A DNA stretch of 64,000 nucleotides, taken from NCBI GenBank assembly GCA_911728435.2, contig OU452216.1, positions 923,981 through 987,980 of the forward strand. The letters are read 5' to 3'. Below, one piece after another: positions 2,542 to 34,871 of this stretch. Under the pieces are notes generated by a model. That model saw only the letters and a program-made list of their open reading frames with translations, ran no database searches and had not been told where the DNA came from. The stretch is from Apoderus coryli. Lineage: Eukaryota > Arthropoda > Insecta > Coleoptera > Attelabidae. The position numbers and the translations under genes are program-made. The first letter of the stretch is position 1. Every line of letters begins with the position of its first letter.

Positions 2542-2667
2542 TGTGAAACTATAAGTCTAAAACTAAACTTTAATTTGTCAAAACTTAAATATAGTTAAAT
2601 ATGTAAATAAACAATATTACATGAACCAAGAAGCAATACATATTCAATAAAACTAAAAGGACACAAA

Positions 2668-3780
2668 TTATTCACTAACATCACCCTTCAGAACTTCTAT
2701 CTGCTCAAGGCTTTCCAGTCTAGCTATTCTTGCCGTTTCATTTTTCCGACAGAAAATATGGCCATCTTTATACCAAACGTACTTGTATCCGGACTCCCTC
2801 AGCTGACGCGCTCTGTAAAACAAATCCCTTGATTCCTTAGACATATCTTCATTAATATAAATTCTTCGCCCTGGTCCAGGCAATTGCAACTCTACTGAGT
2901 TCAAATCACCTATTCGCCTACGTTTTTCCATAACACTACTCTTTGCTTTGCTATCACCAAATGTTACAAGTAAAGGCCTAGTACCCGAACGACCAGGAAG
3001 CTTTTTAACAATTAGCTTACTCTGCTCAGATGTTGGTACACCCAAACCGCTGAGGAGTTTTGTCACTTCCTCCTTTTCCGAAGAACCTTCCTGATGCAAT
3101 CCTCTAATGATTATGTTATTACTTCTCCTCTCAACGTCCTTCTGATTAGATATTACCTTTTGGATAGCGTTCACTTCAGTTTGCAAGGCATTTACACTTC
3201 TCTTCAATTGTTCGTTTTCTTTCTTTAATGATTTATTCTCCACCAAAATCTGCTTTAAGGTACTACGTATTTCCTCCACCCCACGGTTGTGAAAATCAAG
3301 CGATTCCTCAAAGCTTTCAAACTTTTTAGAAAGACGTCCAATTACCTCCTGCAGATTGTTGATTGCAGCAAGTTGAGTCTCCTGCGGAACACCACATGAG
3401 CCACACTGGTCGACACGAGCAGCGACAGGAGTCTTGTCCTTGGGAAACAAGAGGGCAGATCTCCTTCTATTTCTGCTAGGAGAAGGATCCCGTATGTCAG
3501 TTCTGTACATCAAAGAAGGTTCGTCATCATCCTCAGATAGCTGGCAATTAGCAGATGATCCTCCTTTCACTTGACATTGTTTACATATCCAGGACACATC
3601 ATGCTTTTTAGGTCCAGTTACATCCTCCTTTTTATATCCTGCACATGTCAAGTGTACCCATAACTGACAAGCACCAGCACACTGTATACGAAAATTGGTC
3701 TTACCCAATTTCTGGCCACATAACTTGCAGGACATAATATTTTGTAGCAACTCACTAAGTCCCAAATATAAATCAATCAA
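2668..3780 (-). CDS. LINE ORF1: PHD-finger, coiled coil and FP25K/L1-ORF1-like nucleic-acid-binding domain
   Basis: A 370-residue intact frame. A Cys-rich PHD-type finger opens the protein (CKLCG, CAGACQLWVHLTC, WICKQC, residues about 18-70); the Met 15 residues in (base 3735) directly precedes it and is the more likely start. Residues about 135-215 are a heptad-rich coiled coil for oligomerisation. The C-terminal third (RRSNNIIIRGL, LLVTFGDSKAKSSVM, RRIYINEDMSKESRDLFYRARQLR) matches the baculovirus-FP/L1-ORF1-like RNA-binding fold common in insect LINE ORF1s. It would package the element RNA. The ORF is intact while its partner ORF2 is frameshifted. Identity is by motif recognition; a search of LINE ORF1 families would settle the clade. 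Confidence 0.9.
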   Translation of the reverse strand: MIDLYLGLSELLQNIMSCKLCGQKLGKTNFRIQCAGACQLWVHLTCAGYKKEDVTGPKKHDVSWICKQCQVKGGSSANCQLSEDDDEPSLMYRTDIRDPSPSRNRRRSALLFPKDKTPVAARVDQCGSCGVPQETQLAAINNLQEVIGRLSKKFESFEESLDFHNRGVEEIRSTLKQILVENKSLKKENEQLKRSVNALQTEVNAIQKVISNQKDVERRSNNIIIRGLHQEGSSEKEEVTKLLSGLGVPTSEQSKLIVKKLPGRSGTRPLLVTFGDSKAKSSVMEKRRRIGDLNSVELQLPGPGRRIYINEDMSKESRDLFYRARQLRESGYKYVWYKDGHIFCRKNETARIARLESLEQIEVLKGDVSE

Positions 3781-4059
3781 TGCAAAGCCGATTTATTGTA
3801 AAAACGGAATATACAAAAAAAATGTAGTACCTACAGATACAGAATGATATGGGAATTTAACAGTTTATACACTAATTAAAAGTACAAAATCAACAGGTTA
3901 CTTAACACATTTGAGTAAATAAAGATACGCAAAATCAAGTCCACAACTACATCTCAAAACTCGCGCAAACCACAGATCAAAATACAAATATGCGACCGAA
4001 AAAAATCATATTAAACACGAGCGCGAGTTTCACGTGCCTATACTTATAAAGGCCCATGG
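3781..4059. other. Probable 5' untranslated region of the antisense LINE
   Basis: No coding signal. It lies immediately 5' (on the minus strand) of LINE ORF1, so the element's 5' UTR or promoter should be here, but I cannot place its 5' end. It includes GC-richer sequence around 4010-4030. Confidence 0.4.
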
Positions 4060-10299: not shown

Positions 10300-11372
10300 C
10301 TTTCATTTGTTTGCGATAATATAACAAGTGAACTCTCTTTTAGTGATAAATTGACAGATGCGGTGTTGCCACTTCTATACGTAGCTGATACCAACTTTGA
10401 AATTTCAAATAGAACACCCTGTATTTTATTATTTTTTTGAATAGTGCTCATAATTCTGTGTATATTTGATATAATAAGGTATATTTTTATCTGTTACCGT
10501 TTTAACGATTTTAATTATTTTGTGATTTTTATGCTAAACCCGTGTATAATTTAAAAATATATATTTTTGTACCGGGTCAAGCCAAGCGACTGATATTTTC
10601 AAAAACGTTTCTCAAGACATTAGAGTTGCGTAATTGATAACACTTGATAGCCTATAATTATATAGGGCATTCAAAAAAATTGCACATTTTAAATACAAAA
10701 AAATCGATTTTTTTCAAAAGGAACACCCTGTACTTTTTTTTATCTCAATGGATTGACAATTAAACTCCCTATAAAAAGATATAACAATGAATAATTATTT
10801 TGATTATGTCAATATTTTGACATATTAGGTGGCATGGCCTACTGGTAAATTGAGTTATATTTAAAGAGATAGGTATAGGCATATTATGTTATATCTTTTT
10901 ATAGGGAATTTAACAGTCAATCGATTGAGATAAAAAAATACAGCGTGTTCCATTTGAAAAAAATCGATTTTGTTGTATTTTTTGTATTAAAAATGTTGCA
11001 ATGTTGTGAACACCCTGTATAATTATAGGCTATCAAGTGTTATCAATTACGCAACTCTACTGCCTTGAGAAACGTTTTTGAAAATAACAGTCGCTTGGCT
11101 TGACCCAGAACAAAAATATTGATTTTTAAATTATACCCCGTTTTAGCATAAAAACACAAAATAATTAAAATCTCAAAATCGGTAACAGATAAAGATATAC
11201 CTTATTATACCAAATATACTAAGATTTATGAGCAGTATTCAAAAATATAATAAAGTACAGGGTGTTCCATTTCAAAGTTGGTATCAGCTACGTAAAAAGC
11301 GGCAACACCGCATCTGTCAATTTATGAATAAAAGAGAGTTCACATTGTTATATTATCGCAGACAAAATTTCA
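10300..11372. mobile_element. ~1.07-kb palindromic (foldback) element
   Basis: The two halves are inverted copies about a centre near 10,836. GTGAACTCTCTTTT at 10,329-10,342 returns as AAAAGAGAGTTCAC at 11,330-11,343. GATGCGGTGTTGCCAC, TCAAGCCAAGCGACTG, AGAGTTGCGTAATTGATAAC and CCTATAAAAAGATATAAC all have inverted partners. Several ACACCCTGTA boxes sit inside both arms, suggesting nested MITE ends. No coding capacity. Its right end coincides with the left edge of the 2.7-kb duplicated segment. Confidence 0.88.
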
Positions 11373-11699
11373 TTTGTATATATATAGTACAATTACATGT
11401 ATACCAAAATGCTGTTTGCTCTCTTATAATTCAAAATCAAATTTTATTAGTAAAAAGAAATTAAATTAAGCGCAAATAAGCCATTTAGAAGGATTTAGAG
11501 TGTTTAGTGATGTTATTTAGAATTAAAAAGTTTTATAGCCGATCTGGTCAATCGGATAATAGAAGATAATAATCTCTCTTTTTCAATACCCTCCAAATAA
11601 GTATAGTTGTTTTCACGAAAAATGGTTCTGGCTTATCAACTGTAATAAATTACCTGGTTTAATCTTTATTGTGTGGAATATCACCAGGTAAAAAATGCA

Positions 11700-12290
11700 A
11701 ATATGCTACAGGTCTGTAATAATATATAAATGTTTTAAAATTATTGCAAACCGTAACCCAAGTGAACACTTCCATTTGGCCGAGGGATATAATTACCTGT
11801 TTTCAGAAATTATAATACATATACAATCCGGTCATTTTACATTTATGGTAGGCCTTCTTGGGTTTTATGATGGGCAATATCGGAATACAACTTAGTCAAA
11901 ACCATTTATCCTGAATTCCATTATACGCACGTGTCTAACAAAAAGGGACAGTTTATTCATGATCCTTTAAAAGTTTTATAGCCGATCTGGTCAAACGGAT
12001 AATATATTATAATATTCGTATAGTGGACTTCAGGATAAATGGTATTTACTAAGTTCTGCTCCGATGTTGCCCATCATAAAACCCGAGAATGCCTACCATA
12101 AATGTAAAAGGACCGGATTGTATATTTGTTATAATTTCTAAAATCAGGTAATTTTGTCCCTCGGCGAGGTATTGTTATTTTAGTCTTTGGATTTCATTGG
12201 AATTGTTGTGTTACGGCTTGCAATAATTTTAAAACATTTATATATATATTATTACAGACATTTATTGCAAATAATTTATACCCCAACGTA
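11700..12290. repeat. ~590-bp inverted repeat within duplication copy 1
   Basis: Left-arm blocks such as ACAATCCGGTCATTTTACAT, TTTTATGATGGGCAA and ACCATTTATCCTGAA return inverted between 12,035 and 12,165, and the ATTGCAAACCGTAAC / GTTACGGCTTGCAAT pair joins the outer arms. The same structure is present in copy 2 at about 23,710-24,295. It could be the terminal inverted repeats of a foldback element, or regulatory sequence of the adjacent transposase remnant. Confidence 0.85.
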
Positions 12291-12396
12291 CGAAATAGGC
12301 AGTATGCGGCGGCCGTGGATAAATAGTAATAGCGCTTTTCCAGTGGCTCGTTTAAGAAATATCACTTATCTAGTGACGCGAAAGTCATTATAAAAA

Positions 12397-12970
12397 ATGT
12401 ATATAGATAGTTCCTTACTTCAGCAAGGATATAACGCGAGTGCTGCAGCAAGTGTAACCAGTAATTTGACGAAGCTGCCTCTTACTTCAGTTAGACGAAT
12501 TGTTGGAAATCCCATTGAATCAAGACAAAAACGTAAAGATTCCGGTGTCACAAAAAGTCTAGACGATGGGAAAAATCTACACTATGTACGATGAGCAGTG
12601 TGTCTCTACAATCAAAAGTCTAAAACACCGGCTCATCAATGACGAAACTCAAATCAACTGTAGCATCACTACTCTTTGGCGAACTTTGTCTGCAAAAAAT
12701 GAACTTTTACAAGTGCTGGTGTCATTTTCCTTTAAAGAAAACGTATGTTTTTGATACAGTTGCAGAAGAATTTTGACATACAGTGTTACGACTACTTCAC
12801 TACTACTGCGTAAATCCTGTAGAGCTTATGTGGCACCAACTTAAATCGTAGGTACGCGGAAAAATTTTTAAGTGGTATTATGATAGAATTAATTAGGAAC
12901 TGTTTGCATGACATTCCTACCGAGAGTTAGAAAACTTCTGTTAGTCATGTTATAAATGTTAAAAACTCGT
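12397..12970 (+). pseudogene. Decayed Tc1/IS630-like transposase, copy 1
   Basis: The frame from 12,397 begins with a helix-turn-helix-like region (SLLQQGYNASAAASVTSNL, then LPLTSVRRIVGN). The frame from 12,566 continues with a second helix-turn-helix-like block (TIKSLKHRLINDE, INCSITTLWRTL). After a large deletion, 12,800-12,960 gives NPVELMWHQLKS and then LIRNCLHDIP and VSHVINVKNSY. This is the pattern of the last catalytic acidic residue and C-terminal tail of the DDE_3 family. Frames differ and the central catalytic part is missing, so it is inactive. The second copy at 24,415 is equally broken, so the decay predates the duplication. Family assignment rests on short motifs and is moderate. 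Confidence 0.58.
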
Positions 12971-14056
12971 ACCATCCTGTAGCATCAATTGCACCAATTA
13001 TAATTAATTTAGATGCTATTACCATTATTGTCTTTATAAACTTAGGATGTCAGCGCTTGATTAGTATACCTGGAAACTAACACCAGACTGCGTTGGCGTT
13101 GGAATTTTCATGTCGTTCATTCATAAATTTGGGTTTTTAGAAATCTGTAGTAATCTTGTTGGAAAACTGGAAGAGCCATGGTTTCAGACCAATCATATGA
13201 ACATACCCACATTTATAAGTTCGTATTTTTCTTTCGCTTCCAGCCATAGACAATGTTACCAGCCGTCATATAATTATATGGTTTCAACATAATTTTATTG
13301 CGACAAATAATTCAAAAATATATTTTTTAAATGTCATTTTGCTTGACCTAAATTCTCCATATTTGTTTTTACTATATTATTTTAAAATGTCTTTGACTTC
13401 ATATTATTTAGGCGATCACATAATTTTAAAATAAATAAATACGTACACATTTACTAAATTCTAAATAGGTAGGTATATTTTTATAATACGTTATTTTTAT
13501 TTGTTGCTCATTAGACAGTTGAAGGGCTTCCATTTACGTAAACGAAAACGTGAAAGTTGACAGCTACGCGTGCGCAAGTCGATTTTCTTTGCGTTTGGGT
13601 TTACGCCGCTATGTGATCTCGCGTGCCTCCACGTAGTGTCCGTTATCGCTTATACGCTACCCGAAACGCCCCGAATTGGAATTCGGTGCATACCGATCGT
13701 GTTCTGTCATGTCATTATTTATGTATGATATATTTATTATTTTGTACTTTCTTACATAGTTCAATTATATCTTTGCACTCACAAAATATTTATTAGTTCG
13801 AATTATCAATAACAATAGTCCTCAAAATAAAAATTTAAGGTTAAGTGTGTCGTTAATGCGCCACGACTTGTTACACTTCAACTAGCTTTTTAAAGCATTC
13901 CATAAACATCTAGTTTGTACGTTAACGTATATGTTAGCGTTTACGTTTGATTTCAACTTCAAGTGTCTATTGTCTGATATGTCAAACGGCAATTCGCTGA
14001 AATCGCTCATGAACCGTTCCAACCACCATTCTTTTCTGTACCAAAATAAAAGCGTG
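12971..14056. other. Non-coding remainder of duplication copy 1
   Basis: Has short, motif-free frames. Near 13,530 there is TTTACGTAAACGAAAACGTG, and near 13,925 ACGTTAACGTATATG..GCGTTTACGTTTGA in roughly inverted relation, perhaps terminal repeats of another old element. The 60-residue frame at 13,110 is conserved in copy 2, but that is expected from duplication. Confidence 0.4.
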
Positions 14057-14061
14057 CCAGC

Positions 14062-15378: not shown

Positions 15379-16234
15379 TATTATAAGGTTCAACACCAAA
15401 CAAATCTAATATTACTTTTTCAGATTGCGTATTATTTCAATTTAGATATTTTCCTTTTAATTATATCACTTTTTCACATTACATACTATTTTTTTCTTAT
15501 TGTGACTTGTATAATATTATATTAGATTTGTTTGGTGTCGTACTTAAATTATTTTACTGAAAAACTCATTCCAATTAAATATCGACTAAATTTCAGTTTC
15601 AAAATAAGTTGAATAGCGGTTAAATTCAAATTGAAAAGCGCGCCAAGGATAGCCCCGCCCCAAATGCTCTGATTGGCTCGGCACGTTGGCATTTTAATGT
15701 ATGCTATAAAAGAGAGTTCACATTGTTATATTATCGCAGACAAAATTTCATCTGTATATATATAGTACAATTACATGTATACCAAAATGCTGTTTGCTCT
15801 CTTATAATTTAAAATCAAATTTTATTAGTAAAAAGAAATTAAATTAAGCGCAAATAAGCCATTTAGAAGGATTTAGAGTGTTTAGTGATACCAGTGTGAA
15901 GACAGCAGTTAAAATTCTAGCAGTTAATTCCGAACATTGCCGAATGGGGTATACGGGGGCGATTGATAATTCATAATAATATACACTTTAAACGTATATT
16001 ACACGAGCACAAATGTGTTACAAATATATAATAATTAATATCAATAAAACAAATTTATTAAATATTAATATTGCAATATTTTTTTTTTCAATAAATAGGT
16101 AAATCGACATAACATATTTGAAATTAGTAGGTATATGTAGTCAAATAAAAGATTTAGATTCAATATGGTTATATACCCTTACAGACAAATAACATAAATA
16201 TTTCATTGATTGATCCAGGGCCGTACTCTATGCT

Positions 16235-18430
16235 ATAAGTTCACGCGAGTTTTAACTGCTGGCCTCATATCTAAAAACTGGCAAAGCGTGCATTCTTGAA
16301 ATTAATAGTGTAAGTAGCTAACTAAATGTCCTTATTAAAAATATAGGTCAGAATCACTAACACCCCGTCAGAGCCGCACTATATATTTTTTTCTTCCGGC
16401 TGCAACTTCTAACTGCTGACCTCATATCTAAAAACTGGCAAAGCGTGCATTCTTGAAATTAATAGTGTAAATAGTCAACCCTATGTCCTTATTAAAAATA
16501 TATGTCAGAATCACTAACACCCCGTCAGAGTCGTACTATTTATTTTTTTCCCCGCCAGCATCATTTAACTGCTGTACTCATAGCTAAAAACTGGAAAAGC
16601 GTGCATTCTTGAAATTAATAGCGTAAGTAGTCAACCCTATGTCCTTATCAAAAATATATGTCAGAATCACTAACACCCCGTCAGAGCCGTACTATTTATT
16701 TTTTTCTTTTGGCTGCAATTTTTAACTGCTGACCTCATATCTAAAAACTGGCAAAGCGTGCATTCTTGAAATTAATAGTGTAAGTAGTCAATCCTATGTC
16801 CTTTGCAAAAATATATGTCGGAATCACTAACACCCCGTCAGAGCCGTACTATTTATTTTTTTCCCCGCCAGCATCATTTAACTGCTGACCTCATAGCCAA
16901 AAACTGGCAAAGCGTGCATTCTTGGAATTATTAGTGTAAGTAGTCAACCCTATGTCCTTATCAAAAATATATGTCAGAATTACTAACACCCCGTCAGGGC
17001 CGTACCATATATATTTTTTTCTTTCGGCTGCAACTTTTAACTGCTGACCTCATATCTAAAAACTGGCAAAGCGTGCATTCTTGAAATTAATAGCGTAAGT
17101 AGTCAACCCTATGTGCGTATTAAAAATATATGTCAGAATTACTAACACCCCGTCAGGGCCGTACTATTTATTTTTTTCCCCGCCAGCATCATTTAACTGC
17201 TGTACTCATAACTAAAAACTGGCAAAGCGTGCATTCTTGAAATTAATAGTGTAAGTAGCCAACCCTATGTCCTTATCAAAAATATATGTCAGAATCACTA
17301 ACACCCCGTCAGAGCCGTACTATTTATTTTTTTCTTTCGGCTGCAACTTTTAACTGCTGACCTCACATCTAAAAACTGGCAAAGCGTGCATTCTTGAAAT
17401 TAATAGCGTACGTAGCCAACCCTATGTCCATATCAAAAATATATGTCAGAATTACTAACACCCCGTCAGGGCCGTACTATTTATTTTTTTCCCCGCCAGC
17501 ATCATTTAACTGCTGTACTCATAGCTAAAAACTGGCAAAGCGTGCATTCTTGAAATTAATAGCGTAAGTAGTCAACCCTATGTCCTTATCAAAAATATAT
17601 GTCAGAATCAGTAACACCCCGTCAGAGCCGTACTATTTATTTTTTTCTTTTGGCTGCAACTTTTAACTGCTGACCTCATATCTAAAAACTGGCAAAGCGT
17701 GCATTCTTGAAATTAATAGTGTAAGTAGTCAATCCTATGTCCTTTGCAAAAATATATGTCGGAATCACTAACACCCCGTCAGAGCCGTACTATTTATTTT
17801 TTTCCCCGCCAGCATCATTTAACTGCTGACCTCATAGCCAAAAACTGGCAAAGCGTGAATTCTTGGAATTATTAGTGTAAGTAGTCAACCCTATGTCCTT
17901 ATCAAAAATATATGTCAGAATTACTAACACCCCGTCAGGGCCGTACTATATATATTTTTTTCTTTCGGCTGCAACTTTTAACTGCTGACCTCATATCTAA
18001 AAACTGGCAAAGCGTGCATTCTTGAAATTATTAGTGTAAGTAGTCAACCCTATGTCCTTATCAAAAATATATGTCAGAATTACTAACACCCCGTCAGGGC
18101 CGTACTATATATATTTTTTTCTTTCGGCTGCAACTTTTAACTGCTGACCTCATATCTAAAATTTGGCAAAGCGTGCATTCTTGAAATTAATAGCGTAAGT
18201 AGTCAACCCTATGTGCGTATTAAAAATATATTTTAGAATTACTAACACCCCGTCAGGGCCGTACTATTTATTTTTTTCCCCACCAGCATCATTTAACTGC
18301 TATACTCATAACTAAAAACTGGCAAAGCGTGCATTCTTGGAATTATTAGTGTAAGTAGTCAACCCTATGTACTTATCAAAAATATATGTCAGAATTACTA
18401 ACACCCCGTCAGAGCCGTACTATTTATTTT
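16235..18430 (+). repeat. Left satellite array of the foldback: ~14 units of ~156 bp, alternating two types
   Basis: The landmark CAAAGCGTGCATTC recurs every ~156 bases from 16,286 to 18,328. Units alternate between type A (CGGCTGCAACTTTTAACTGC) and type B (CCCCGCCAGCATCATTTAAC), giving a ~312-bp higher-order period, with one A-A neighbour pair near 17,960-18,130. Every unit carries TTTAACTGCTG(A/T)..CTCAT, AACACCCCGTCAG and a CCGTAC..ATTTTTTT block. Confidence 0.95.
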
Positions 18431-19139
18431 TTAAATTAATAGAGTAGGTAGCTAACCATATGTCTATGTAACTAAAAATTTAAATCAGGATGATTAGCAC
18501 TCTGTACACGTTTAAAATTATTCATGTAATTAGCAGATTATGTGTTCTTGTTAATCTCAAAATGAATAATAGGTACTGCTTTAGAGGGTTCTTGCAACGA
18601 ACCTATTATTAGCCGTAGTCGTCTAATGTCAAAATTCATCCTGCTTTGTGAGTGCGTTTGCTTTAATTAAATCTCTCTTTTGTTTATGTCAAATCACTTT
18701 TACTATTAATTTCCTTTATGACAGTTAATTTTAAATGAGATGTCTTTAAAAATATTTTATCTGCAATCATATCGGATCAGTTCAACTGAGGTGAGTTGAA
18801 AATCGAGAATTCCTAATAACATAATACGCACAATATAAAACTATTATAATATAGGTACCTACAACAAAATTAAAGTATCATCTTAGTTGTCCAACAATAC
18901 TTAATAACTACTAAACAAAATATAGTTAGTTAATATCGTATCTATCATATATCCTAATTATCTAAGGGTATTTTCATTGTCTTGGCGCCTTTTTAATTTT
19001 TTTCAACATTTTAAACCTATTCTTTTCGGCACGCGGCACAAAGTAGAGTAAAAAAACGGGTACGCGACAGAGTAATGTACAAGTATATTATAATATACTG
19101 ATTAGGTGTTATTTTATTGTTTATTTCGCAGTTTTATAA

Positions 19140-19698
19140 TTATCGAGGATTTTATCTGAACAGAAATATTCAAAAAGTTCAGTTCGTTTTCCACTGATTT
19201 TTTAAATAAAGAAAAATTTTTTAATAAGCCTATTGTCGGAGGTAATCATTTTTGTTTAATATTAATAGACTTTCAATTAAAAACTTTTGCATATTTAGAT
19301 CTTATGGGTTCATCACGTATAAAACCGCAGAAATGTATTATGAAAAATTTAAACATTTTATGAATCAATATGATGCAATTTTCGACGATCCGTTCGATTA
19401 CAACGAGTTTTCAATTATTTCCCGCCCCCATCTAATTCAAATGGATCAATATAATTGCGGTCCATATATTATATATTTTTTTAATAACATTTTGGAACAG
19501 AAGCCTCTTGATCATTCATGTGATATTGATTCTTACAGGGATACAATATAACAGATTATTTTAGATACATCATCGGATATGAAAGGTAAATGTTTGTTAT
19601 GTGGACATAATGTTGTCGATAAATCAATTTCATTAACTTGTCAATTTTGCCACAGAATTGTTCATACTATATGCAACAATTCATTAAATGAAAAGTAA
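19140..19698 (+). pseudogene. Decayed Ulp1/adenain-like cysteine protease with C-terminal Cys/His finger
   Basis: One frame (from about 19,223) gives GGNHFCLILIDF and FAYLDLMGSS, the His and Asp blocks of the Ulp1 (SUMO-protease) fold. The frame from 19,252 gives SRPHLIQMDQYNCGPYIIYF with the Gln and nucleophilic Cys. The switch between frames lies near 19,300-19,320. A single TAA at 19,549-19,551 separates this from an in-frame finger, CLLCG..LTCQFCHRIVHTIC (C-x2-C-x12-C-x2-C-x4-H-x2-C). Catalytic residues are thus present but the reading frame is broken at least twice. Ulp1 domains are known as passengers in plant Mutator elements and in other large DNA transposons. The protease call is strong; a function in transposition is inference. 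Confidence 0.72.
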
Positions 19699-20740
19699 TT
19701 ATAAAATACAGTACAAAAAAAAAACATATTAATTTTAGCCTATTGAAATTCGGTGTATGTGGGCGAAATTTTAAATTTAATTAAAAAAAGGTTTATTAGT
19801 GTCAACCAAAAGTCAAAATGACATGAGTTTGAATAATTGCCGAAACACTATTATTAACTTAAAATGGCCAGCTGGATAACATGTTATACCAAAGATATAT
19901 ATGAGATTTAGGTACTTGTTACACTTTTCCCTTAGACAAGGATTTCTTCCCTTGTTTAAGCTATTTCCGAATATATTTTTAGTTTGGTTTTGTTTTTGAC
20001 CGTCGTCGTGTCGATACTATATACAACTCTTTACATCGTCTATTGAGAGATTATTTCGACAGGTCCAACTTCAATGCAAAAACGCTACGCGTTTCTGGGT
20101 AAATTCGTATTTATTTATTTTCTTTATTTTTATATTGGCAATAATATTTTTGTTTATTTATTAACCTACTCCGTAATCTATTCAAAATAATCCTTCCTAG
20201 TCCTTTACAATAAGGTAGTTTTGGGTAAAGTGTAATTTTTAATAATTTAATAATTATTAAAAAAATATTTTTGCTCAATATTTTTGTACTATTATTAGTT
20301 AGAATAATTATTATCTTATTACCAAAAAACTGAATAAAATTGTATTTAGTCCCATTTATTAATTGTACTTTAGGAAAGTGAAAAAAGTGATTTTCGTAAA
20401 AAGTGGACTTAATACAGTTTTATTCTGGGGTACAGATATGTAAACCGAAATAGTTAAAACTTGGTTTACTCAATTGACGAAGTAGAGCGTGCCCTGTAGG
20501 AAAAAAAGTATGAAATAAAGATATTAATTTAATAATCTGAGTTTTTTTAATACATTTTAGCGCTAAAAATGTCATTTTTATTTCAAACAAAGTTCTTTGA
20601 ATTGATGATTTTATAACATCAGCCAATATGCCGCATATTTGAATAAATTCCAACGGTACATTTTTAGTGCTAAATTATATTTTTATTTTCATGGCGATCG
20701 AAAACATATATTTTTATAAAGTACTTATGGTTTACTACTT
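19699..20740. other. Unassigned centre of the foldback element
   Basis: AT-rich. A 77-residue minus frame (20,420-20,653) ends FNYFGLHICTPE; I do not recognise it and it could be residue of a larger lost protein. 18,430-19,140 is likewise without a recognisable gene. Confidence 0.4.
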
Positions 20741-20744
20741 AGAG

Positions 20745-23150
20745 TATTAATTTCAAGAATGCACGCTTTAACAGTTTTTGGCTATGAGGTCAGCAGTTAA
20801 ATGATGCTGGCGGGGAAAAAAAATAGTACGGCTCTGACGGGGTGTTAGTAATTCTGACATATATTTTTGATAAGGACATAGGGTTGACTACTTACATTAT
20901 TAATTTCAAGAATGCACGCTTTGCCAGTTTTTAGATATGAGGTCAGCAGTTAAAAGTTGCAGCCAAAAGAAAAAAATAAATAGTACGGCTCTGACGGGGT
21001 GTTAGTGATTCCGACATATATTTTTGATAAGGACATAGGGTTGACTACTTACATTATTAATTTCAAGAATGCACGCTTTGCCAGTTTTTAGATATGAGGT
21101 CAGCAGTTAAAAGTTGCAGCCAAAAGAAAAAAATATATATGGTACGGCCCTGACGGGGTGTTAGTAATTCTGACATATATTTTTGATAAGGACATAGGGT
21201 TGACTACTTACACTAATAATTCCAAGAATGCACGCTTTGCCAGTTTTTGGCTATGAGGTCAGCAGTTAAATGATGCTGGCGGGGAAAAAAATAAATAGTA
21301 CGGCTCTGACGGGGTGTTAGTGATTCTGACATATATTTTTGATAAGGACATAGGGCTGACTACTTACACTAATAATTTCAAGAATGCACGCTTTGCCAGT
21401 TTTTAGATATGAGGTCAGCAGTAAAAAGTTGCAGCCAAAAGAAAAAAATAAATAGTACGGCTCTGACGGGGTGTTAGTGATTCTGACATATATTTTTGAT
21501 AAGGACATAGGATTGACTACTTACACTATTAATTTCAAGAATGCACGCTTTGCCAGTTTTTAGATATGAGGTCAGCAGTTAAAAGTTGCAGCCGAAAGAA
21601 AAAAATATATATAGTACGGCCCTGACGGGGTGTTAGTGATTCTGGCATATATTTTTGATAAGGACATAGGGTTGGCTACTTACACTATTAATTTCAAGAA
21701 TGCACGCTTTGCCAGTTTTTAGTTATGAGTACAGCAGTTAAATGATGCTGGCGGGGAAAAAAATAAATAGTACGGCCCTGACGGGGTGTTAGTAATTCTG
21801 ACATATATTTTTAATACGCACATAGGGTTGACTACTTACGCTATTAATTTCAAGAATGCACGCTTTGCCAGTTTTTAGATATGAGGTCAGCAGTTAAAAA
21901 TTGCAGCCGAAAGAAAAAAATATATATGGTACGGCCCTGACGGGGTGTTAGTAATTCTGACATATATTTTTGATAAGGACATAGGGTTGACTACTTACAC
22001 TAATAATTTCAAGAATGCACGCTTTGCCAGTTTTTAGATATGAGGTCAGCAGTTAAAAGTTGCAGCCGAAAGAAAAAAATATATATAGTACGGCCCTGAC
22101 GGGGTGTTAGTAATTCTGACATATATTTTTGATAAGGACATAGGGTTGACTACTTACACTAATAATTCCAAGAATGCACGCTTTGCCAGTTTTTGGCTAT
22201 GAGGTCAGCAGTTAAATGATGCTGGCGGGGAAAAAAATAAATAGTACGGCTCTGACGGGGTGTTAGTGATTCCGACATATATTTTTGCAAAGGACATAGG
22301 GTTGACTACTTACACTAATAATTTCAAGAATGCACGCTTTGCCAGTTTTTAGATATGAGGTCAGCAGTTAAAAGTTGCAGCCAAAAGAAAAAAATAAATA
22401 GTACGGCTCTGACGGGGTGTTAGTGATTCTGACATATATTTTTGATAAGGACATAGGGTTGACTACTTACGCTATTAATTTCAAGAATGCACGCTTTGCC
22501 AGTTTTTAGCTATGAGTACAGCAGTTAAATGATGCTGGCGGGGAAAAAAATAAATAGTACGACTCTGACGGGGTGTTAGCGATTCTGACATATATTTTTA
22601 ATAAGGACATAGGGTTGACTATTTACACTATTAATTTCAAGAATGCACGCTTTGCCAGTTTTTAGATATGAGGTCAGCAGTTAGAAGTTGCAGCCGGAAG
22701 AAAAAAATAAATAGTACGGCTCTGACGGGGTGTTAGTAATTCTGACATATATTTTTAATAAGGACATAGGGTTGACTACTTACACTATTAATTTCAAGAA
22801 TGCACGCTTTGCCAGTTTTTAGATATGAGGTCAGCAGTTAGAAGTTGCAGCCGGAAGAAAAAAATATATAGTACGGCTCTGACGGGGTGTTAGTAATTCT
22901 GACATATATTTTCAATAAGGACATAGGGTTGACTACTTACACTATTAATTTCAAGAATGCACGCTTTGCCAGTTTTTAGATATGAGGTCAGCAGTTAGAA
23001 GTTGCAGCCGGAAGAAAAAAATATATAGTGCGGCTCTGACGGGGTGTTAGTGATTCTGACCTATATTTTTAATAAGGACATTTAGTTAGCTACTTACACT
23101 ATTAATTTCAAGAATGCACGCTTTGCCAGTTTTTAGATATGAGGCCAGCA
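20745..23150 (-). repeat. Right satellite array of the foldback: ~16 units, mirror image of the left array
   Basis: Same ~156-bp units in inverted orientation (landmark GAATGCACGCTTTGCCAG every ~156 bases, 20,758 to 23,114), again mainly alternating type A and type B. Unit count differs from the left (about 16 against 14), and type A dominates nearest the right terminus (last three units). Confidence 0.95.
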
Positions 23151-24414
23151 GTTAAAACTCGCGTGAACTTATAGCATAGAGTACGGCCCTGGATCAATCA
23201 ATGAAATATTTATGTTATTTGTCTGTAAGGGTATATAACCATATTGAATCTAAATCTTTTATTTGACTACATATACCTACTAATTTCAAATATGTTATGT
23301 CGATTTACCTATTTATTGAAAAAAAAAATATTGCAATATTAATATTTAATAAATTTGTTTTATTGATATTAATTATTATATATTTGTAACACATTTGTGC
23401 TCGTGTAATATACGTTTAAAGTGTATATTATTATGAATTATCAATCGCCCCCGTATACCCCATTCGGCAATGTTCGGAATTAACTGCTAGAATTTTAACT
23501 GCTGTCTTCACACTGGTTTTAGTGATGTTATTTAGAATTAAAAAGTTTTATAGCCGATCTGGTCAATCGGATAATAGAAAATAATAATCTCTCTTTCTCA
23601 ATACCCTCCAAATAAGTATAGTTGTTTTAACGAAAAATGGTTCTGGCTTATCAACTGTAATAAATTACCTGGTTTAATCTTTATTGTGTAGAATATCACC
23701 AGGTAAAAAATGCAAATATGCTACAGGTCTGTAATAATATATAAATGTTTTAAAATTATTGCAAACCGTAACCCAAGTGAACACTTCCATTTGGCCGAGG
23801 GATAAAATTACCTGCTTTCAGAAATTATAATACATATACAATCCGGTCATTTTACATTTATGCTAGGCCTTCTTGGGTTTTATGATGGGCAATATCGGAA
23901 TACAACTTAGTCAAAACCATTTATCCTGAATTCCATTATACGCACGTGTCTAACAAAAAGGGACAGTTTATTCATGATCCTTTAAAAGTTTTATAGCCGA
24001 TCTGGTCAAACGGATAATATATTATAATATTCGTATAGTGGACTTCAGGATAAATGGTATTTACTAAGTTCTGCTCCGATGTTGCCCATCATAAAACCCG
24101 AGAATGCCTACCATAAATGTAAAAGGACCGGATTGTATATTTGTTATAATTTCTAAAATCAGGTAATTTTGTCCCTCGGCGAGGTATTGTTATTTTAGTC
24201 TTTGGATTTCATTGGAAGTCTTCACTTCTGTTACGGCTTGCAATAATTTTAAAACATTTATATATATTATTACAGACATTTATTGCAAATAATTTATACC
24301 CCAACGTACGAAATAGGCAGTATGTGGCGGCCGTGGATAAATAGTAATAGCGTTTTTCCAGTGGCTCGTTTAAGAAATATCACTTATCTAGTGACGCGAA
24401 AGTCATTATAAAAA

Positions 24415-24990
24415 ATGTATATAGATAGTTCCTTACTTCAGCAAGGATATAACGCGAGTGCTGCAGCAAGTGTAACCAGTAATTTGACGAAGCTGCCTCT
24501 TACTTCAGTTAGACGAATTGTTGGAAATCCCATTGAATCAAGACAAAAACATAAAGATTCCGGTGTCACAAAAAGTCTAGACGATGGGAAAAATCTACAC
24601 TATGTACGATGAGCAGTGTGTCTCTACAATCAAAAGTCTAAAACACCGGCTCATCAATGACGAAACTCAAATCAACTGTAGCATCACTACTCTTTGGCGA
24701 ACTTTGTCTGCAAAAAATGAACTTTTACAAGTGCTGATGTCATTTTCCTTTAAAGAAAATGTATGTTTTTATACAGTTGCAGAAGAATTTTAACATACAG
24801 TGTTACGACTACCTCACTACTACTGCGTAAATCCTGTAGAGCTTATGTGGCACCAACTTAAATCGAGGGTACGCGGAAAATTTTTAAGTGGTATTATGAT
24901 AGAATTAATTAGGACATTAGGAACTGTTTGCATGACATTCCTACCGAGAGTTAGAAAACTTCTGTTAGTCATGTTATAAATGTTGAAAAC
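24415..24990 (+). pseudogene. Decayed Tc1/IS630-like transposase, copy 2
   Basis: Same layout as 12,397-12,970: helix-turn-helix-like frame at 24,415-24,612, second frame at 24,584-24,793, then CVNPVELMWHQLKS..VRGKFLSG and LIRTLGTVCMTF-type sequence with a 9-base expansion (GGACATTAG region near 24,911). The central catalytic region is missing in both copies. The two are diverged by only a few bases, so one mutated ancestor was duplicated. Confidence 0.58.
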
Positions 24991-26050
24991 TCGTACCATC
25001 CTGTAGCATCAATTGCACCAATTATAATTAATTTAGATGCTATTACCATTATTGTCTTTATAAACTTAGGATGTCACACACCAGACTGCGTTGGCGTTGG
25101 AATTTTCATGTCGTTCATTCATAAATTTGGGTTTATAGAAATCTGTAGTAATCTTGATGGAAAACTGGAAGAGCCATGGTTTCAGACCAATCATATGAAC
25201 ATACCCACATTTATAACTTCGTATTTTTCTTTCGCTTCCAGCCATAGACAATGTTACCAGCCGTCATATAATTATATGGTTCATATGGTTTCAACATAAT
25301 TTTATTGCGACGAATAATTCAAAAATATATTTTTTAAATGTCATTTTGCTTGACCTAAATTCTCCATATTTGTTTTTACTATATTATTTTAAAATGTCTT
25401 TGACTTCATATTATTTAGGCGATCACATAATTTTAAAATAAATAAATACTTACACATTTACTAAATTCTAAATAGGTAGGTATATTTTTATAATACGTTA
25501 TTTTTAATTGTTGCTCATTAGACAGTTGAAGGGCTTCCATTTACGTAAACGGAAACGTGAAAGTTGACAGCTACGCGTGGGCAAGTCGATTTTCTTTGCG
25601 TTTGGGTTTACGCCGCTATGTGATCTCGCGTGCCTCCACGTAGTGTCCGTTATCGCTTATACGCTACCCGAAACGCCCCAAATTGGAATTCGGTGCATAC
25701 CGATCGTGTTCTGTCATGTCATTTGTGTGTATGATATATTTATTATTTTGTACTTTCTTACATAGTTCAATTATATCTTTGCACTCACAAAATATTTATT
25801 AGTTAGAATTATCAATAACAATAGTCCTCAAAATAAAAATTTAAGGTTAAGTGTGTCGTTAACGCGCCACGAATTGTTACACTTCAACTAGCTTTTTGAA
25901 GCATTCCATAAACATCTAGTTTGTACGTTAACGTATATATTAGCGTTTACGTTTGATTTCAACTTCAAGTGTCTATTGTTTGATCTGTCAAACGGCAATT
26001 CGCTGAAATCGCTCATGAACCAACCACCATTCTTTTCTGTACCAAAATAA

Positions 26051-26548
26051 ATGTGTGCCAGGGCAACGCATGCGCCTGCAATCGATCCTAACAGTTCCGA
26101 ATACAGTTTCATGACGATACGAAAACGGGGGGTTGGAACTAACCTAATAACTATCCAGTAGCCACTTGCCCAACAAATAATTTTAATTCTCTTTGTTATT
26201 CTGCACGCGCCACTTTTCGACCCATCGATGTATTAACTCTAAGAGAGAGATATCACATTTCATTCATAAATTATAGTTTGTTTGGGCGCAGACAATAACA
26301 AACAACTTCATGGAAAGAAGCGAGAAAAAACATCGGACTTTCTTGTCACTCCGGATGTTTCTTCCACCGTTGCGGCAACGTCGCTGTTTTGATTTTGACA
26401 AGATGCGACATGGAAATATTAATACCAGTGGCGTATCCCATAATAATGCTTTTACATTATATTTATTTATTTTATATAAAAAAAAAAAGTTATATTTTAA
26501 CTTTCTAGAAGTGAAAATAGCTTCTGTACATTAAACAAGAATCTAGAT
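26051..26548. other. Spacer, no gene seen
   Basis: Frames are short (the 74-residue frame at 26,310 has no motif). The sequence is less AT-rich around 26,050-26,130. Confidence 0.35.
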
Positions 26549-29195: not shown

Positions 29196-30428
29196 TTAAA
29201 CAGTAGCAGAGTCAGTCTCATAAATTGGAAAAACACATAGTTTTGACACAGGTCGTTTGATTATATTATCCTTAACCTTAACACTCACAACACTGTCTGC
29301 ACCAGGATGAAGGTTGACTACTTTGCCCATATGCCATTTGCATGGAGGAGCGTTATCTTCCTTGATTAACACGATTGTGTCAATTTTCAAATAGTTTTGA
29401 GAATTTTGCTTCCATTTCACTCGGACTTGTAGCTCGGACAGATATTCCGCATGCCAACGATCCCAAAAATGTTGGACAATTTATTGCAGTCGTTTGTAAT
29501 GTTTTAACCGATTTTCTGGTACAGCTAAATAACTTGGCTCGGGGATGGCTGTTAAGGATTTTCCAATCAAGAAGTGAGCCGGGGTTAATGGATTGAGGTC
29601 CTCGGGATTGGAAGTTAATGGGGATAACGGTCTCGAATTGAGAACTGCTTCAATCTGAAGAAGAACTGTCGTAAACTCTTCAAAGTTTAAATAACTATTA
29701 CCTATTATTGGTTTTAAGTGATATGTTGCACTCTTAATGCCAGCTTCCCATACTCCACCGAAATTTGGGGCATGTGCTGGTATAAATTGCCAAGTGATAT
29801 TATCTTTACTTAGATCATTATAAATACAGTCTGATTGTTCCTTTAATAAATTTATCAATTTAGCTAATTCAGTACAAGCTCCTACAAAATTATTGCCGTT
29901 TTCGGAAAATGTGTTTAATGGCTTTCCTCGACGGCTTATAAATCGTCTTAAAGATGCGAGAAAACACTCAGAGGTTAAGTCAGAAACCGCCTCCAGATGG
30001 ACAGCTAAACATATCAATAGACAGACATATGCTTTAACTATTTTAGGGTTCCTTGTTTTTCCATCCTTTAAATTAAAAGGGCCTGCGTAATCGACTCCTG
30101 TATTATGGAAAGGTAAGTATTGCGAAATCCTACTTTCAGGTAAGTTTCCCATTATGTAGTTGCAAGGTTTAGGATTAACCCGAAAACATACAATGCAATT
30201 GTGTAAAATACGTCTTATCAAATTTCTAGCTGAAACTGGCCAATATATTTCTCTTATTGATGATAACAACATAGTAGGCCCACAATGTTTTAATCGTTCA
30301 TGTTCATTTTTGATAATTAGTTTAGTTAATATATGGTTTTTAGGTAATATTATTGGATATTTTTTGTCGAATTGACACTTAGAATTTTCTAATCGACCGC
30401 CTACACTTATTAATTTATTTTCATCCAT
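29196..30428 (-). pseudogene. BEL/Pao pol: integrase and C-terminal DUF5641 region, one nonsense codon
   Basis: The integrase frame (29,481-30,428) has the zinc-binding HHCC part (EHERLKHCG, LHNCIVCFR), NTGVDYAGPF with the first catalytic Asp, and FGGVWEAGIK with the Glu. The second Asp position reads SENGNNF where the family has SDNG, so the triad is altered. The frame ends at a TAA (29,481-29,483), but the same frame resumes at once with FWDRWHAEYLSEL and continues to 29,196 (VLIKEDNAPPCKWHMGKV), the DUF5641 module typical of BEL/Pao pol. This is old retroelement DNA in the genome; it is broken and not expected to integrate. Confidence 0.93.
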
Positions 30429-30792
30429 AAACGGATTTAAAGATAATATTTCGCTCTTTTTATTTACATTGATGTTTTTACTTAAATCTAAATATTCCTT
30501 AGGAAAAGATTCTTGCTGTGCTAGACTAATAAGAATATTTAACGCTCCTTGTAATTCGTGGGACGTAATAACTCCGTATTGACGCCGTTCTTTAGAGAAT
30601 TTTAAATTGTTTATAAATCGTAATACATAGTTCTCTGTAATTTAATTAGAGAAGCTGTTTTTCAAAAATATCGAAATTTTGCTGCTTTACAGAATGATTG
30701 GAAGCTAAACGTTCTTCTGGCAATTTATCCAAATCAAATTTAATATTATTGCTTATAGGTAAGTTGTCATGACAAAGCCACTCAGGACCTTG
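30429..30792 (-). pseudogene. BEL/Pao pol: degraded linker between RNase H and integrase
   Basis: Lies between the two recognisable domains and has frames interrupted by stops and shifts. Low-complexity AT-rich runs suggest several small indels. Confidence 0.6.
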
Positions 30793-31480
30793 TCACCATA
30801 AATTACAATTTTGTAATTTATATGGGTTTACACCGCGCGATATTAAATCCGCCGGGTTCTCTTTCGATGTCACATGAAACCAAGTGTTGATATCGGTGAA
30901 TTGTTGAATTTCGCTAACCCTAATGGCTACCAACGTTTTCCATCTTGGGGAAGAGGCACGAATCCAAGATAAAGTTATAGTGGAGTCACACCATAGATAT
31001 TCGCGACTGATTGTTATGGTTAGTGCTTCTCTAAACTTTTGAATTAAATTGGCTAAAAGAAATGCTCCGCTTAATTCTAGTCTAGGTAACGATAATTGCT
31101 TTAATGGAGCTACCCTTGATTTAGCGCATAATAAATAAGAATTGTAATTGCCACATACAGATTTACATCTAACATATATACATGCTCCGTAGGCTTTTTC
31201 ACTAGCGTCCGAAAACCCGTGGAGCTCAATATAAGAGATTTTTGTTTTTATAGTAACTTGCCTTGGAATTTTTATTGTATTTAATTGCATTAAGTTGTTA
31301 CGGAATTCCAACCAAAATTCGAGTAAAACATTGGGTATTTCTTCATCCCATGACAGTTTTTCTTTAAATAGTGTTTGGATAAATATCTTGGTCGTAATTA
31401 TTACAGGACCTAGAAGACCTAACGGATCAAAAATTTGCGCGATCTCCGATACAATCTTCCGTTTGGTAATAGTGTTTTAA
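30793..31480 (-). pseudogene. BEL/Pao pol: A17-type connection region and RNase H
   Basis: The minus frame holds AQIFDPLGLLGPV (about 31,400-31,440), a hallmark of Pao pol between RT and RNase H. It is followed by the RNase H core ELHGFSDASEKAYGACIY, LPRLELSGAFLLA, YLWCDSTITLSWI and ISRGVNPYKL, which supply the Asp/Glu/Asp residues. In the family it degrades the RNA of the RNA-DNA hybrid. A frame change separates it from the RT near 31,530. Its 3' end is at the stop at 30,793. Confidence 0.9.
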
Positions 31481-31533
31481 ACTGAGATTGTGAAACATGG
31501 TATTGTATTATGTCTTTACTCGCGTTCCAATAC

Positions 31534-32660
31534 TTACACACCTAGAGTTTTGTTTTCGCCAAAACTTAGAAAACTTGAATCTATATCGGTATTTATTTCT
31601 AAATTGTTGAATAATTGATCGTTGCATAACCATTTTCTTAATACAAAACCTGATGAAGCTAGTATATTCGAAACATCTTTTTGTAATTGTATAATTTCTG
31701 TTTTAGAATTAGAGCCTGTCAACAAATCATCGACACAAAATGAACTTTTAATAACATTGCACGCCATTGGATACTTTTCTTTATTATCGTCAGCTAACTT
31801 ATGTAAGCGGCGTATAGCTAAGTAAGGGGCTGACGCCGTTCCATAAGTTACTGTATTCAATTTGTAGCAATCTACATTGTCATTCGGTTTTTCGCGCCAG
31901 AAAATTCTTTGAAATTTTCGTTGCTTAGGATTTATATCGATTATCCTATACATTTTCGAGATATCCGATGTTATCACATAATTAAATTGCCTAAAATTTA
32001 ACAAAATAATGAACAAATCGTTTTGTAAAGTGGGGCCGGTAAATTGTACATCATTTACTGACAATCCGCTGTCGCTCTTCATTGAACCGTCAAAAACAAC
32101 GCGAACTTTAGTTGTGCAACTACCTTCGCGCACCACAGCATGATGTGGCAAATAATAGTTGAGTTCTTCAGTTCCCGGTGCATCTATAATTTTAGTCATG
32201 TGCCCTAGAGCTTCATACTCTTTCATGAATTGCTTATAGTCATTTAATAAATCAGGATTTCTTTGTAACCTACGTTCTTGAGAATAAAATCGTTTAATCG
32301 CAAATTTTCGAGTATTACCTAAATATTCTAGCTTGTTATTAAATGGAATATCAATGACAAAATTTCCCTTTTCACTGTGCTTTACTGTTTTTAGGAAATT
32401 GTCTTCACAAATTTTGTCTGCCTCTGAATATATTTTATAATTGTTTTTAACTTCTTCCATTTCCCAAAATTTTTCAATTTGATTATTTAAAATGCTGTCA
32501 ATAATTGTACTGACGTAACTAACATATTTGCTGTTACAAGAAATTGAATTTAAAGTACCTGCTATGATCCATCCCAAAGCAGTATTTTGCATTACTAAAT
32601 TTGAATTGTCGAGTTTAAATTGTCCGTTTTCTATTAGTTGCCAAAATATAGTTGAACCTA
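31534..32660 (-). pseudogene. BEL/Pao pol: reverse transcriptase
   Basis: Starts inside the conserved lead-in TALGWIIAG and continues through HHAVVREGSCTTKVRVVFDGS, TSDISKMYR, VTYGTASAPYLAIR and the active-site FCVDDLLTG (the YxDD-type box). Upstream, IFWQLIENGQFKLDNSNL in the same frame extends it to about 32,660. It is followed by a frameshift near 31,530, so the polyprotein is interrupted. Confidence 0.93.
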
Positions 32661-33145
32661 ATAAAATATCAATAGGTCCTGATTTATTAAATTATGGATC
32701 TGCTAATGATAAATTTATCGGTATATTTAACCTAGAATTATCGAAACATGCACGCGGTAAATTGTTTGTAATTCGCGGCAAAACTAAACAAGATACTGAC
32801 GTATTGTAATTTTTATTGCACTAGAAAATATTGTTAGTTGTAGAAAATTTAACGTTGGTCATTGCTTCGCCTACACCAACTATAGAATAGTTAACTTTAT
32901 TCAATTGTATGTTTAATTGTTTACATGCTCATTCTGATATAAAATTACTTTGCGATCCGCTATCTAATAGCGCCCGCCACTGGTGATAATGCCCAGTACG
33001 ATCTTGAATTTGAACTATCGCGGTTGACAACAACACCTGCGACGCACTCTTTGTAAAAGCTGCTGTTTCTGTTGTGCTTTGCGGGTACTATTGTTTGACA
33101 TTGCCCACACAGCTGAGATGCTTGCAGTTACATTTTCTGGCGGTG
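32661..33145 (-). pseudogene. BEL/Pao pol/gag junction: aspartic protease, truncated
   Basis: WRALLDSGSQSNFIS (about 32,940-32,990) is the retropepsin active-site block, preceded by the strand QVLLSTAIVQIQD. Farther upstream is a Cys-rich scrap (CNCKHLSC) that may be the end of the gag zinc knuckle. At about 33,145 homology stops abruptly at the tandem-repeat family, so gag and the 5' LTR are missing. Several stops interrupt the frame. Confidence 0.8.
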
Positions 33146-33147
33146 CG

Positions 33148-34871
33148 CTTAACAGATTTTAACCAAATTTGGTACAAAAATACTATTGGACATGGCAAGG
33201 AGCTGATTAGATTTTGGGAAACATTGAGCGTAGGCAATGGGTTTAAAAGAGGGTTCAAAAATTAAAAAAATTCATAGTTCTTAAACTTATCCGAAATACT
33301 GCATAATTTTTTACGCATTTAATTGAATATAACCTAAAATAATGAACATAAATTATTATACCACATTGGCGTTCGAAAATAGTGTAAAATGGGGTAAAAT
33401 AGATTAAAAAATAGCAGAAATATTAACTAGTTATTTATAGCTTTGATAGAATATAACCTATAAAATGTGTCACAAATAACTTACTTTCATAGTCGTTCGT
33501 AAATAGCGGAAAAGGGGTCAAAACATAAAAAATATATATTTCCTAAACTTATTCGAAATATGGAATAATTTTTCATAGTTATGATACAATATAAGTTAAA
33601 AAATATTCCATAAAAGAATTGGTTCTAAAATAGTCTAAAAAAAGGGTCAAAAACGAAAAAAAAAAGGTTTCCCAAATATACAAGAAAAATTGGCTAATTA
33701 TATATTTAATCGATGAGTAGAACCTTTGGCGTAGAACACTAAACTGACAATCGTTTTACCACTTCACCAAAACACTTCTTTTAAATCTCGACGCGCGTTT
33801 CGCTAACAATGTTAGCATCCTCAGGAGAGAATTAAATTAATTCTCTCCTGAGGATGCTAACATTGTTAGCGAAACGCGCGTCGAGATTTAAAAGAAGTGT
33901 TTTGGTGAAGTGGTAAAACGATTGTCAGTTTAATTATATATTGTTTTGATACACAAAATGCCACATAAAATTTTCATTTACATAGGCGTCCGTAAATAGT
34001 AGAAAAGGGAGTAAAATAAAAAAAAGGAAATTGTTAAAATTTTTATATGTAACTACTTGAATTGGTGTTAAAAATATACTACAAAAATTAATGAACCTTA
34101 GGCGTCCGTGAAAATTCTATAAAAGGGTCAGAAAAAAATTGTATTCGTGATAACTCAAAAACCACGTAATGGATTTTAACCACATTTGGTACGAAAATAC
34201 TACAGGATTTATAAGTGGTGATTAACATAGAGCAAGGGGTTTAAAAGAGGGTTCAAAAATTAAAAAAATCATAGTTCTTAAACTTATCCGAAATATTGAA
34301 TAATTTTATGTGTTTTTAATTAAATATAACCTAAAATATTCAACCTAAACAATTAGACCACATTGACATTTGAAAAAAGTGTAAAATGGGGTAAAAAGGT
34401 TAGAAAAAACCGTATTTCTTAAAAGTAGCAGAAATATTGACTAGTTATGATATAAATTTACCCGAAATAGGTAGTGCATAATTTTTGACGCATTTAATTG
34501 AATATAACCTAAAATATTGAACATAAAATATTAGACCACATTGGCGTTCGATAATAGTGTAAAATGGGTTAAAAAATATGTAAAAAAAAACGTATTTCTT
34601 AAACATAGGAGAAATATTAACTAGTTATTTATAGCTTTTATATGATATAACCTATAAAATGTGTCATAAATAACTTGTTTTCATAGGCGTTCGTAAATAG
34701 TGGAAAAGGGGTCAAAATATATACTTCCTCAACTTATTCGAAATACGGAATAATTTTTCATAGTTGTGATAGAATATAACATAAAAAATGTTACATAAAT
34801 GAACTGGTTCACACAGGCGTTCAAAAATAGTGTAAAAAAGGGCCAAGAACGAAAAATTGGCTAATTATATA
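33148..34871. repeat. Tandem-unit repeat array (inverse orientation of the GAACGCCTATG family), copy A
   Basis: Units of about 115-145 bp with the signature GTTC..AGGCGTTCGTAAATAGT and AGGGGTCAAAA. Similar arrays occur at 6,720-7,600, 50,450-51,740 and 51,982-53,260. Confidence 0.88.
33735..33935. repeat. ~200-bp near-perfect palindrome, absent from copy B
   Basis: CTGACAATCGTTTTACCACT runs into its exact reverse complement about a centre at AATTAAATTAATT (33,840); each arm is about 97 bases. The site in copy B (around 52,530) is uninterrupted. Arms contain CTGAGGA..GCTAAC ATT GTTAGC..GAAA in both strands. Confidence 0.93.

Follow-up and report, generated by a model that had tools for sequence, protein, structure and literature searches.

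A recent non-coding foldback element in Apoderus coryli, probably derived from a large Rehavkus-type transposon of the same genome

Structure of the Element and Its Target Site

The stretch of DNA analyzed here, to which we will refer as the window, comprises 64,000 nucleotides of the beetle Apoderus coryli (assembly GCA_911728435.2, contig OU452216.1, positions 923,981 to 987,980 of the forward strand), and contains a transposable element of 7,628 bp. This element is a recent, non-coding foldback insertion, whose parts are as follows (positions are those of the window; a dot denotes a feature without strand).

15881..15889 (.), left target-site duplication TTTAGTGAT, exact copy
15890..23517 (.), whole element, 7,628 bp
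15890..16249 (+), left tip domain, 360 bp
16250..18432 (+), left satellite array, period 156, 13.9 copies (Tandem Repeats Finder)
18433..20703 (.), centre, 2,271 bp
20704..23157 (-), right satellite array, inverted, period 157, 15.6 copies (Tandem Repeats Finder)
23158..23517 (-), right tip domain, 360 bp, identical to the left tip domain
23518..23526 (.), right target-site duplication TTTAGTGAT, exact copy
11319..12011 (+), paralogous empty site, matching the joined flanks over 694 bp at 98.3%, uninterrupted

Two arms of 2.5 and 2.8 kb, 93% identical, thus face each other within 7.6 kb, which would allow most of the element to fold back on itself, as is typical of the foldback class; their alignment spans 2,555 columns (93.0% identity), and the two ends are identical without gaps over the first 581 bases. 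A first-pass annotation, made from the letters alone, had described a recent foldback transposon at this place, and most of its measurements hold: the perfect 9-bp target duplication is exact on both flanks, the approximately 350 identical terminal bases extend further (to 581), the inverted arrays of about 156-bp units contain the proposed 14 and 16 units by anchor counting (13.9 and 15.6 by Tandem Repeats Finder), and the centre of 2.3 kb measures 2,271 bp. Both “recent” and “foldback” were likewise appropriate terms.

The empty site contains a single 9-bp target TTTAGTGAT, at 11503-11511. Positions 11319-14060 and 23518-26061 of the window form a local duplication, about 96-98% identical; the element was inserted in one of its copies, the other being the empty site.

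Copies of the Element in the Genome

The genome searched was the 428-Mb assembly of 129 contigs. The 360-bp tip gave 209 first-look candidates, and the 40 that were scored are all 99-100% identical. A 27-bp tip sequence (up to 3 mismatches) occurs 182 times, 90 in forward and 92 in reverse orientation, with 0 occurrences for the reversed control. Among 100 tip places listed, 92 are exact, making at least 37 facing pairs with a spacing from 818 bp to 28.9 kb. Eighteen element loci were collected (the window, 8 pairs and 9 singles), of which 16 were delimited with both ends inside the stretch; L025 and L028 overran the stretch and were omitted from the duplication comparison.

The 16 complete non-coding copies range from 7.2 to 13.0 kb in length, and 15 of them are flanked by perfect 9-bp duplications, each of different sequence. 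Together with the coding copies described below (6/6), the 9-bp duplication is found in 21/22 complete copies, with one copy lacking it and no other length seen among the 22 checked, in agreement with the 9 bp reported by the first-pass annotation for this locus. The same centre is present in 14/16 copies, at 96-100% identity, and one of these also carries an insert of 2.36 kb. L020 and L021, by contrast, lack a centre and are palindromic almost throughout (8.7 and 7.3 kb, hardly any spacer), and both are flanked by a 9-bp duplication. Furthermore, three copies, all 7,246 bp long, agree at 99.94-99.99% and occupy three different targets.

The 2.36-kb insert is situated at about 3970-6335 of L018; the copy that holds it, C7:22231034-22240787, is also the single complete one not flanked by a target duplication. 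Its assignment as a remnant of the coding part was rejected because it possesses imperfect 42-bp inverted ends of its own; it is therefore more likely a nested second transposon. A second family has also been observed (C1:16294591-16306446 and C1:28127114-28139021), whose tip differs in one base and which surrounds the gene ends of a class with 71-72% identity.

Coding Copies and the Origin of the Centre

The coding relative read in this work, L057 (C1:3360500-3367900), contains a single frame of 1,440 aa from the first ATG, followed downstream by an array of the 156-bp unit (15.2 copies to the end of the stretch). L058, situated just upstream of L057, contains the inverted left array (91% to the right array), together with the left portion of the centre, arranged as in the window. 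Set against this relative, the centre comprises the following stretches.

18988..19124 (+), similar to the region upstream of the coding frame (L057 2-132, 88%)
19123..19124 (+), deletion junction, with L057 133-4044 missing (about 3.9 kb) and AT common to both sides
19123..19839 (+), similar to the 3' end of the transposase frame and downstream (L057 4045-4825, 86% with gaps)
19246..19551 (+), frame showing the Q and NCG motifs of a protease domain of the Ulp1-like kind (Peptidase_C48)
19552..19698 (+), C-terminal C1/PHD-like zinc-binding remnant, one TAA apart from the protease frame
19840..20481 (.), stretch of the centre without L057 counterpart, about 640 bp

Since these matches are collinear with L057 and about 3.9 kb are missing at the AT junction, the most suitable reading of the window's element is that it arose by internal deletion from a coding element of this type. 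The Peptidase_C48 match of the protease frame is weak alone (E 0.025), and the H motif of the domain sits in a different, overlapping frame of the centre. The TAA between protease frame and zinc tail is common to 13 aligned centres, including that of the window, and is not found in C7_22, whose 150-aa frame was used as query against the same genome. Among the resulting 92 matches, 26 show 97-100% identity over nearly the whole query (25 of these with the TAA), and 8 show 86% identity within stop-free frames of 641 to 1,453 aa; other classes near 70%, 41% and 25% include frames of 1,448, 1,482 and 1,302 aa, the last two being open frames of the 41% and 25% classes. The rest are partial matches, among them one at C5:18219228 (93%) that has a 142-aa frame with no stop. 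No database protein similar to the 150-aa remnant was found at E 0.001, which is unsurprising since candidates were limited to proteins of similar length.

Exact tips face each other around at least six of the eight copies of the 86% class, with tip-to-tip lengths of 14,511, 22,148, 22,357, 22,734, 23,464 and 28,875 bp, and all six coding copies are flanked by perfect 9-bp duplications, each different. The remaining two have one exact tip within 20 kb among the tips listed. The ends of the 14,511-bp copy are identical over the 180 bp read, and 179/180 positions match the tip of the window. As the gene and its near flanks take only about 5.7 kb in the coding copy sampled, most of each 22-29 kb copy should be array, judging from the tip distances. 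A long coding relative with the same tips, as sought by the first-pass annotation, is thus present, but its protein is matched by no Pfam model of MULE-type (Mutator-like element) transposases.

Predicted Protein of the Coding Copies

The predicted 1,440-aa protein of L057 contains DDE motifs, a PHD finger, a YqaJ nuclease and an Ulp1-type protease, a domain set that appears unexpected for a cut-and-paste element, as it would combine a recombination-type nuclease with a SUMO-type protease. The PHD finger (residues 864-910) reaches E 9.2e-5 and 22.8 bits, against a Pfam cut-off of 24; PF00628 is precomputed in 7/15 database relatives, and PHD-bearing chains of the PDB were also matched. The lambda-exonuclease family of NCBIfam matches at E 1.9e-11 and 44.3 bits, below its cut-off of 68. 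Three of the 15 database relatives are named, from the beetles Phaedon, Pyrocoelia and Ceutorhynchus, and the named ones carry no Rehavkus label; 14 of the 15 were included in the protein alignment (A1), with P0013 omitted.

By definition, the DDE core of canonical MULEs is RNase H-like, of IS256/MULE type, and carries a CxxH motif. In Pfam, neither the PF10551 MULE domain nor a FLYWCH or SWIM zinc finger matched the protein between the shared tips up to E 1. A profile built from five PF10551 MULE frames of the same genome gave a probability of 0.4%, a weak test because the profile is shallow. By structure comparison, the modeled fold appears nearest to an IS256-type transposase, with no Foldseek match at E 0.001 and no eukaryotic MULE or Rehavkus protein among the matches listed. 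Thus, “Mutator-like”, as the element had been called in the first-pass annotation, can be kept in a wide sense only: there is no Pfam MULE match, the genome's own PF10551 profile fails to align, and the features point to Rehavkus, which has been placed in the literature close to MULEs or as their outgroup.

Variation and Exchange Between the Arrays

Each arm was encoded as a succession of unit types, of which 212 are distinct, and array length among the inserted copies with a centre ranges from 2.6 to 42.6 units per arm. In four copies, including that of the window, one arm is nearly alike unit by unit (16 anchors) and the other contains 14, 19, 27 and 35. A copy whose centre is 100% identical to that of the window has 18.9 units instead of 13.9 in one arm; array length can therefore change faster than bases.

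The two arms were compared in 13/16 copies (two centreless copies and C17_3.7, with one arm too short, were left out). The outer 940 bp of the arrays are more alike between arms than the inner 940 bp in 12/13 copies (mean identity 97.0% and 92.9%, respectively), the exception being L026 (91.4 outer vs. 92.7 inner). The outer parts are 97.0% alike within a copy vs. 95.1% between arms of different copies. The inner array parts keep the identity of their own arm (left-left 94.6%, right-right 96.3%, left-right 92.6-92.9%). The effect comes mainly from one cluster of near relatives among the copies (99.6-99.8% in the outer and 93.6-95.9% in the inner parts), and hence the 13 copies are not independent; in the window copy, the outer array stretch is 94.7% alike overall vs. 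93.7% inside, despite the 581 identical bp. Exchange between arms seems strongest near the tips, and repair from the excised end, copying inwards off either arm, could produce such a gradient.

The tips also share a short stretch with the array units. The 18-bp stretch of the left tip that ends in CAGCAGTTAAAA has a 16/18 match to the reverse complement of the consensus unit, which was built from 247 near-full-length matches to one unit and not from every unit; the comparison of the tip stretch TGAAGACAGCAGTTAAAA with the consensus unit in reverse (16/18) was equalled by 4 of 2,000 shuffles. The tip holds a second AGCAGTTAA.

Interpretation and Alternative Explanations

We consider it highly probable that the element is non-autonomous and arose by internal deletion from a large Rehavkus-type foldback transposon of the same genome, given its insertion with a 9-bp duplication, the tips and arrays common to coding and non-coding copies, the collinear remnants with their junction, and the uninterrupted parental frames. 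It very probably moved in trans, as proposed by the first-pass annotation, given a long coding relative with the same tips. The parental protein would bind the tips and the array units bearing AGCAGTTAA, pair the two ends, cut, and insert with a 9-bp stagger; transposase made by the long copies would also move the deleted ones in trans. The arrays may provide a ladder of additional binding sites. Unequal exchange, together with break repair templated by either arm, could alter array length while keeping the outer units of both arms alike.

Several observations weigh against this account. The arrays of the 22-29 kb parents derive from tip distances, arrays having been read inside one coding copy; the second family (72% class, tip with one mismatch) could also supply transposase; and the copy C7:22231034-22240787 (1/16 non-coding copies) has no target duplication. 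The fold match is by structure only (best Foldseek E 0.007). Furthermore, about 640 bp of the window's centre are absent from L057, and the identity between both is 86-88% with gaps counted, so that the immediate parent may be a different, unseen copy.

One alternative concerns the arrays, which could be a passenger satellite without any role in transposition, turned over by neutral unequal crossing over; we regard this as a real possibility, although a somewhat doubtful one. The 2.6 to 42.6 units per arm and the 18.9 vs. 13.9 units of the copy with identical centre are in its favor, and exact tips just 818 bp apart (spacing computed from tip positions) suggest that long arrays may not be needed. 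However, the consensus unit has the 16/18 stretch in common with the tip, arrays are present at both ends in all 16 derivatives read and in the coding copy sampled, and sites in the end repeats of Galileo bind the THAP domain of its transposase (PMC3688188).

The parental element could also represent not Rehavkus but a separate, undescribed DDE superfamily with PHD, YqaJ and Ulp1 domains. Rehavkus is known here from its description and not from protein comparison, and PMC6446971, which mentions its PHD finger, does not use the words YqaJ, exonuclease, peptidase or protease in the main text. Yet the PHD finger, the 9-bp duplication, the insect host and the satellite of about 160 bp all coincide with published Rehavkus (PMC10218199; PMC6446971), and a separate superfamily is unlikely.

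A bolder mechanism can also be conceived, which we judge improbable: the element would be a self-maintaining satellite generator, whose YqaJ nuclease resects the arrays at excision or integration, whose inverted arrays anneal and recopy each other, and whose fused Ulp1-type protease counters SUMO-dependent silencing of the arrays. If true, such recopying would homogenize the outer units of both arms, change array length faster than point mutations accrue, and let coding copies reach 14-29 kb, mostly of satellite. A literature search for YqaJ with transposase, PHD finger and Ulp1 in insects gave nothing, and a search combining YqaJ with Mutator, transposon and SUMO protease gave no paper relevant by title and start of abstract.

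Movement by a canonical Phantom-type MULE is very improbable. The genome has 28 PF10551 matches, some in frames of 607-611 aa, 9-bp duplications are common to both, Tm1 of nematodes, a MULE of Phantom type, has foldback ends (PMC3169594), and aphid Phantoms are reported to have a minisatellite after the transposase open reading frame (PMC6446971, Table 1). As a partner of the element, this candidate was rejected: in the 28 PF10551 loci (3.2-3.3 kb each), blastn at E 1e-5 found no similarity to the element (0/28), a comparison that tips lying farther away would escape, and the gene between the identical tips has no MULE-model match, no FLYWCH listed, and no profile match to the five MULE frames of its own genome.

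Long palindromes are hard to assemble, and L020 and L021 are centreless palindromes of 8.7 and 7.3 kb, but it is practically out of the question that misassembly or a local inverted duplication produced the mirror-image structure, as this structure recurs with its own 9-bp duplication at 21/22 loci checked and its empty site is present in the window; chance or local assembly inversion is very unlikely as its origin because of the duplications of 15/16 copies, the empty site and the tip count (182 vs. 0 in the control).

One genome holds both halves of such a system, namely many recent copies without a gene, and coding copies that have the same tips, 9-bp duplications and an uninterrupted frame. 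With parent and derivative together, the mobilization of foldback elements and the growth of their arrays can be addressed directly, and old questions become testable: whether the repeats bind transposase, whether array number sets mobility, and how transposons seed satellite DNA.

Other Features of the Window

Positions 50579-52728, with relatives at 33146-34873, contain an approximately 1.8-kb inverted repeat (87%) that includes tandem units of some 139 and 396 bp; this may be another inverted structure bearing satellites, of older date. The palindrome at 10306-11366 is 1.06 kb long and self-complementary at 84%, and a further recent duplication links 37119-41311 with 53264-57398 (96-99% identical, same order, about 16 kb apart). 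Three long frames on the minus strand have, by eye, the look of the following elements:

2023-3792 (-), long frame like a non-LTR retrotransposon
29481-32691 (-), long frame like a BEL/Pao-type retroelement
35928-36827 (-), long frame like a mariner-like transposase

Comparison With Known Systems

Foldback elements have been known for decades. The end repeats of FB/FB4 are short, unlike the 156-bp satellite, and the target duplication of Galileo is of 7 bp. The present element fits the Rehavkus/foldback kind, set against Rehavkus by published description: the PHD finger (below cut-off), the 9-bp duplication and the satellite of about 160 bp in inverted termini coincide, with inverted 156-bp units in both arms of the window copy and of the coding copy sampled. 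Rehavkus has been reported from insects and annelids; its members make 9-bp duplications and carry a PHD finger and a minisatellite, their description is confined to Repbase, and the group has been used as an outgroup to MULEs (PMC6446971); a 2026 survey of arthropod MULEs counts it among them in its introduction and also uses it as an outgroup (PMC13359780). No paper of the Rehavkus literature found was about an aphid or foldback family, to judge by title; the Acyrthosiphon pisum satellitome paper contains no “156”, and both instances of “157” appear to be in its reference list (PMC12241859).

The first-pass annotation knew of no described insect family with this architecture, which does not hold, as both Rehavkus-1_TC and Tetris possess it. 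Rehavkus-1_TC of Tribolium castaneum (9.5 kb) has a 164-bp satellite in inverted termini, together with the 9-bp duplication and PHD finger (PMC10218199; PMC6446971). Its arrays are short, mostly of five and eight monomers (PMC10218199), in contrast to the 2.6-42.6 units per arm and coding copies of 14.5-28.9 kb found here, and the published Rehavkus text consulted names no YqaJ or Ulp1 domains. Tetris of Drosophila virilis is similarly non-autonomous, with an outer domain and tandem repeats of about 220 bp, 37 bp in common between outer domain and repeat, and 8-10-bp duplications; its description reports three complete copies and no coding partner (PMC4079207), whereas at least 16 non-coding copies and coding copies with the same tip are present here.

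FB/FB4 of Drosophila also has long repetitive inverted ends and 9-10-bp duplications and is non-autonomous, with the FB4 transposase called unknown (PMC8277862). Tm1 of Meloidogyne shares foldback ends, mostly 9-bp duplications, and coding and non-coding members, but it has a Phantom-type MULE transposase (496 aa with FLYWCH) and repeats of 13-15 bp (PMC3169594). Galileo of Drosophila has long ends with tandem repeats holding sites for the THAP domain of its transposase, but belongs to the P-element superfamily (PMC3688188). Compared with these systems, what is new here is the size of the coding copies, the presence of parent and derivative in one genome, the domain set of the predicted protein, and a hint that exchange between the arms follows a gradient inwards from the tips.

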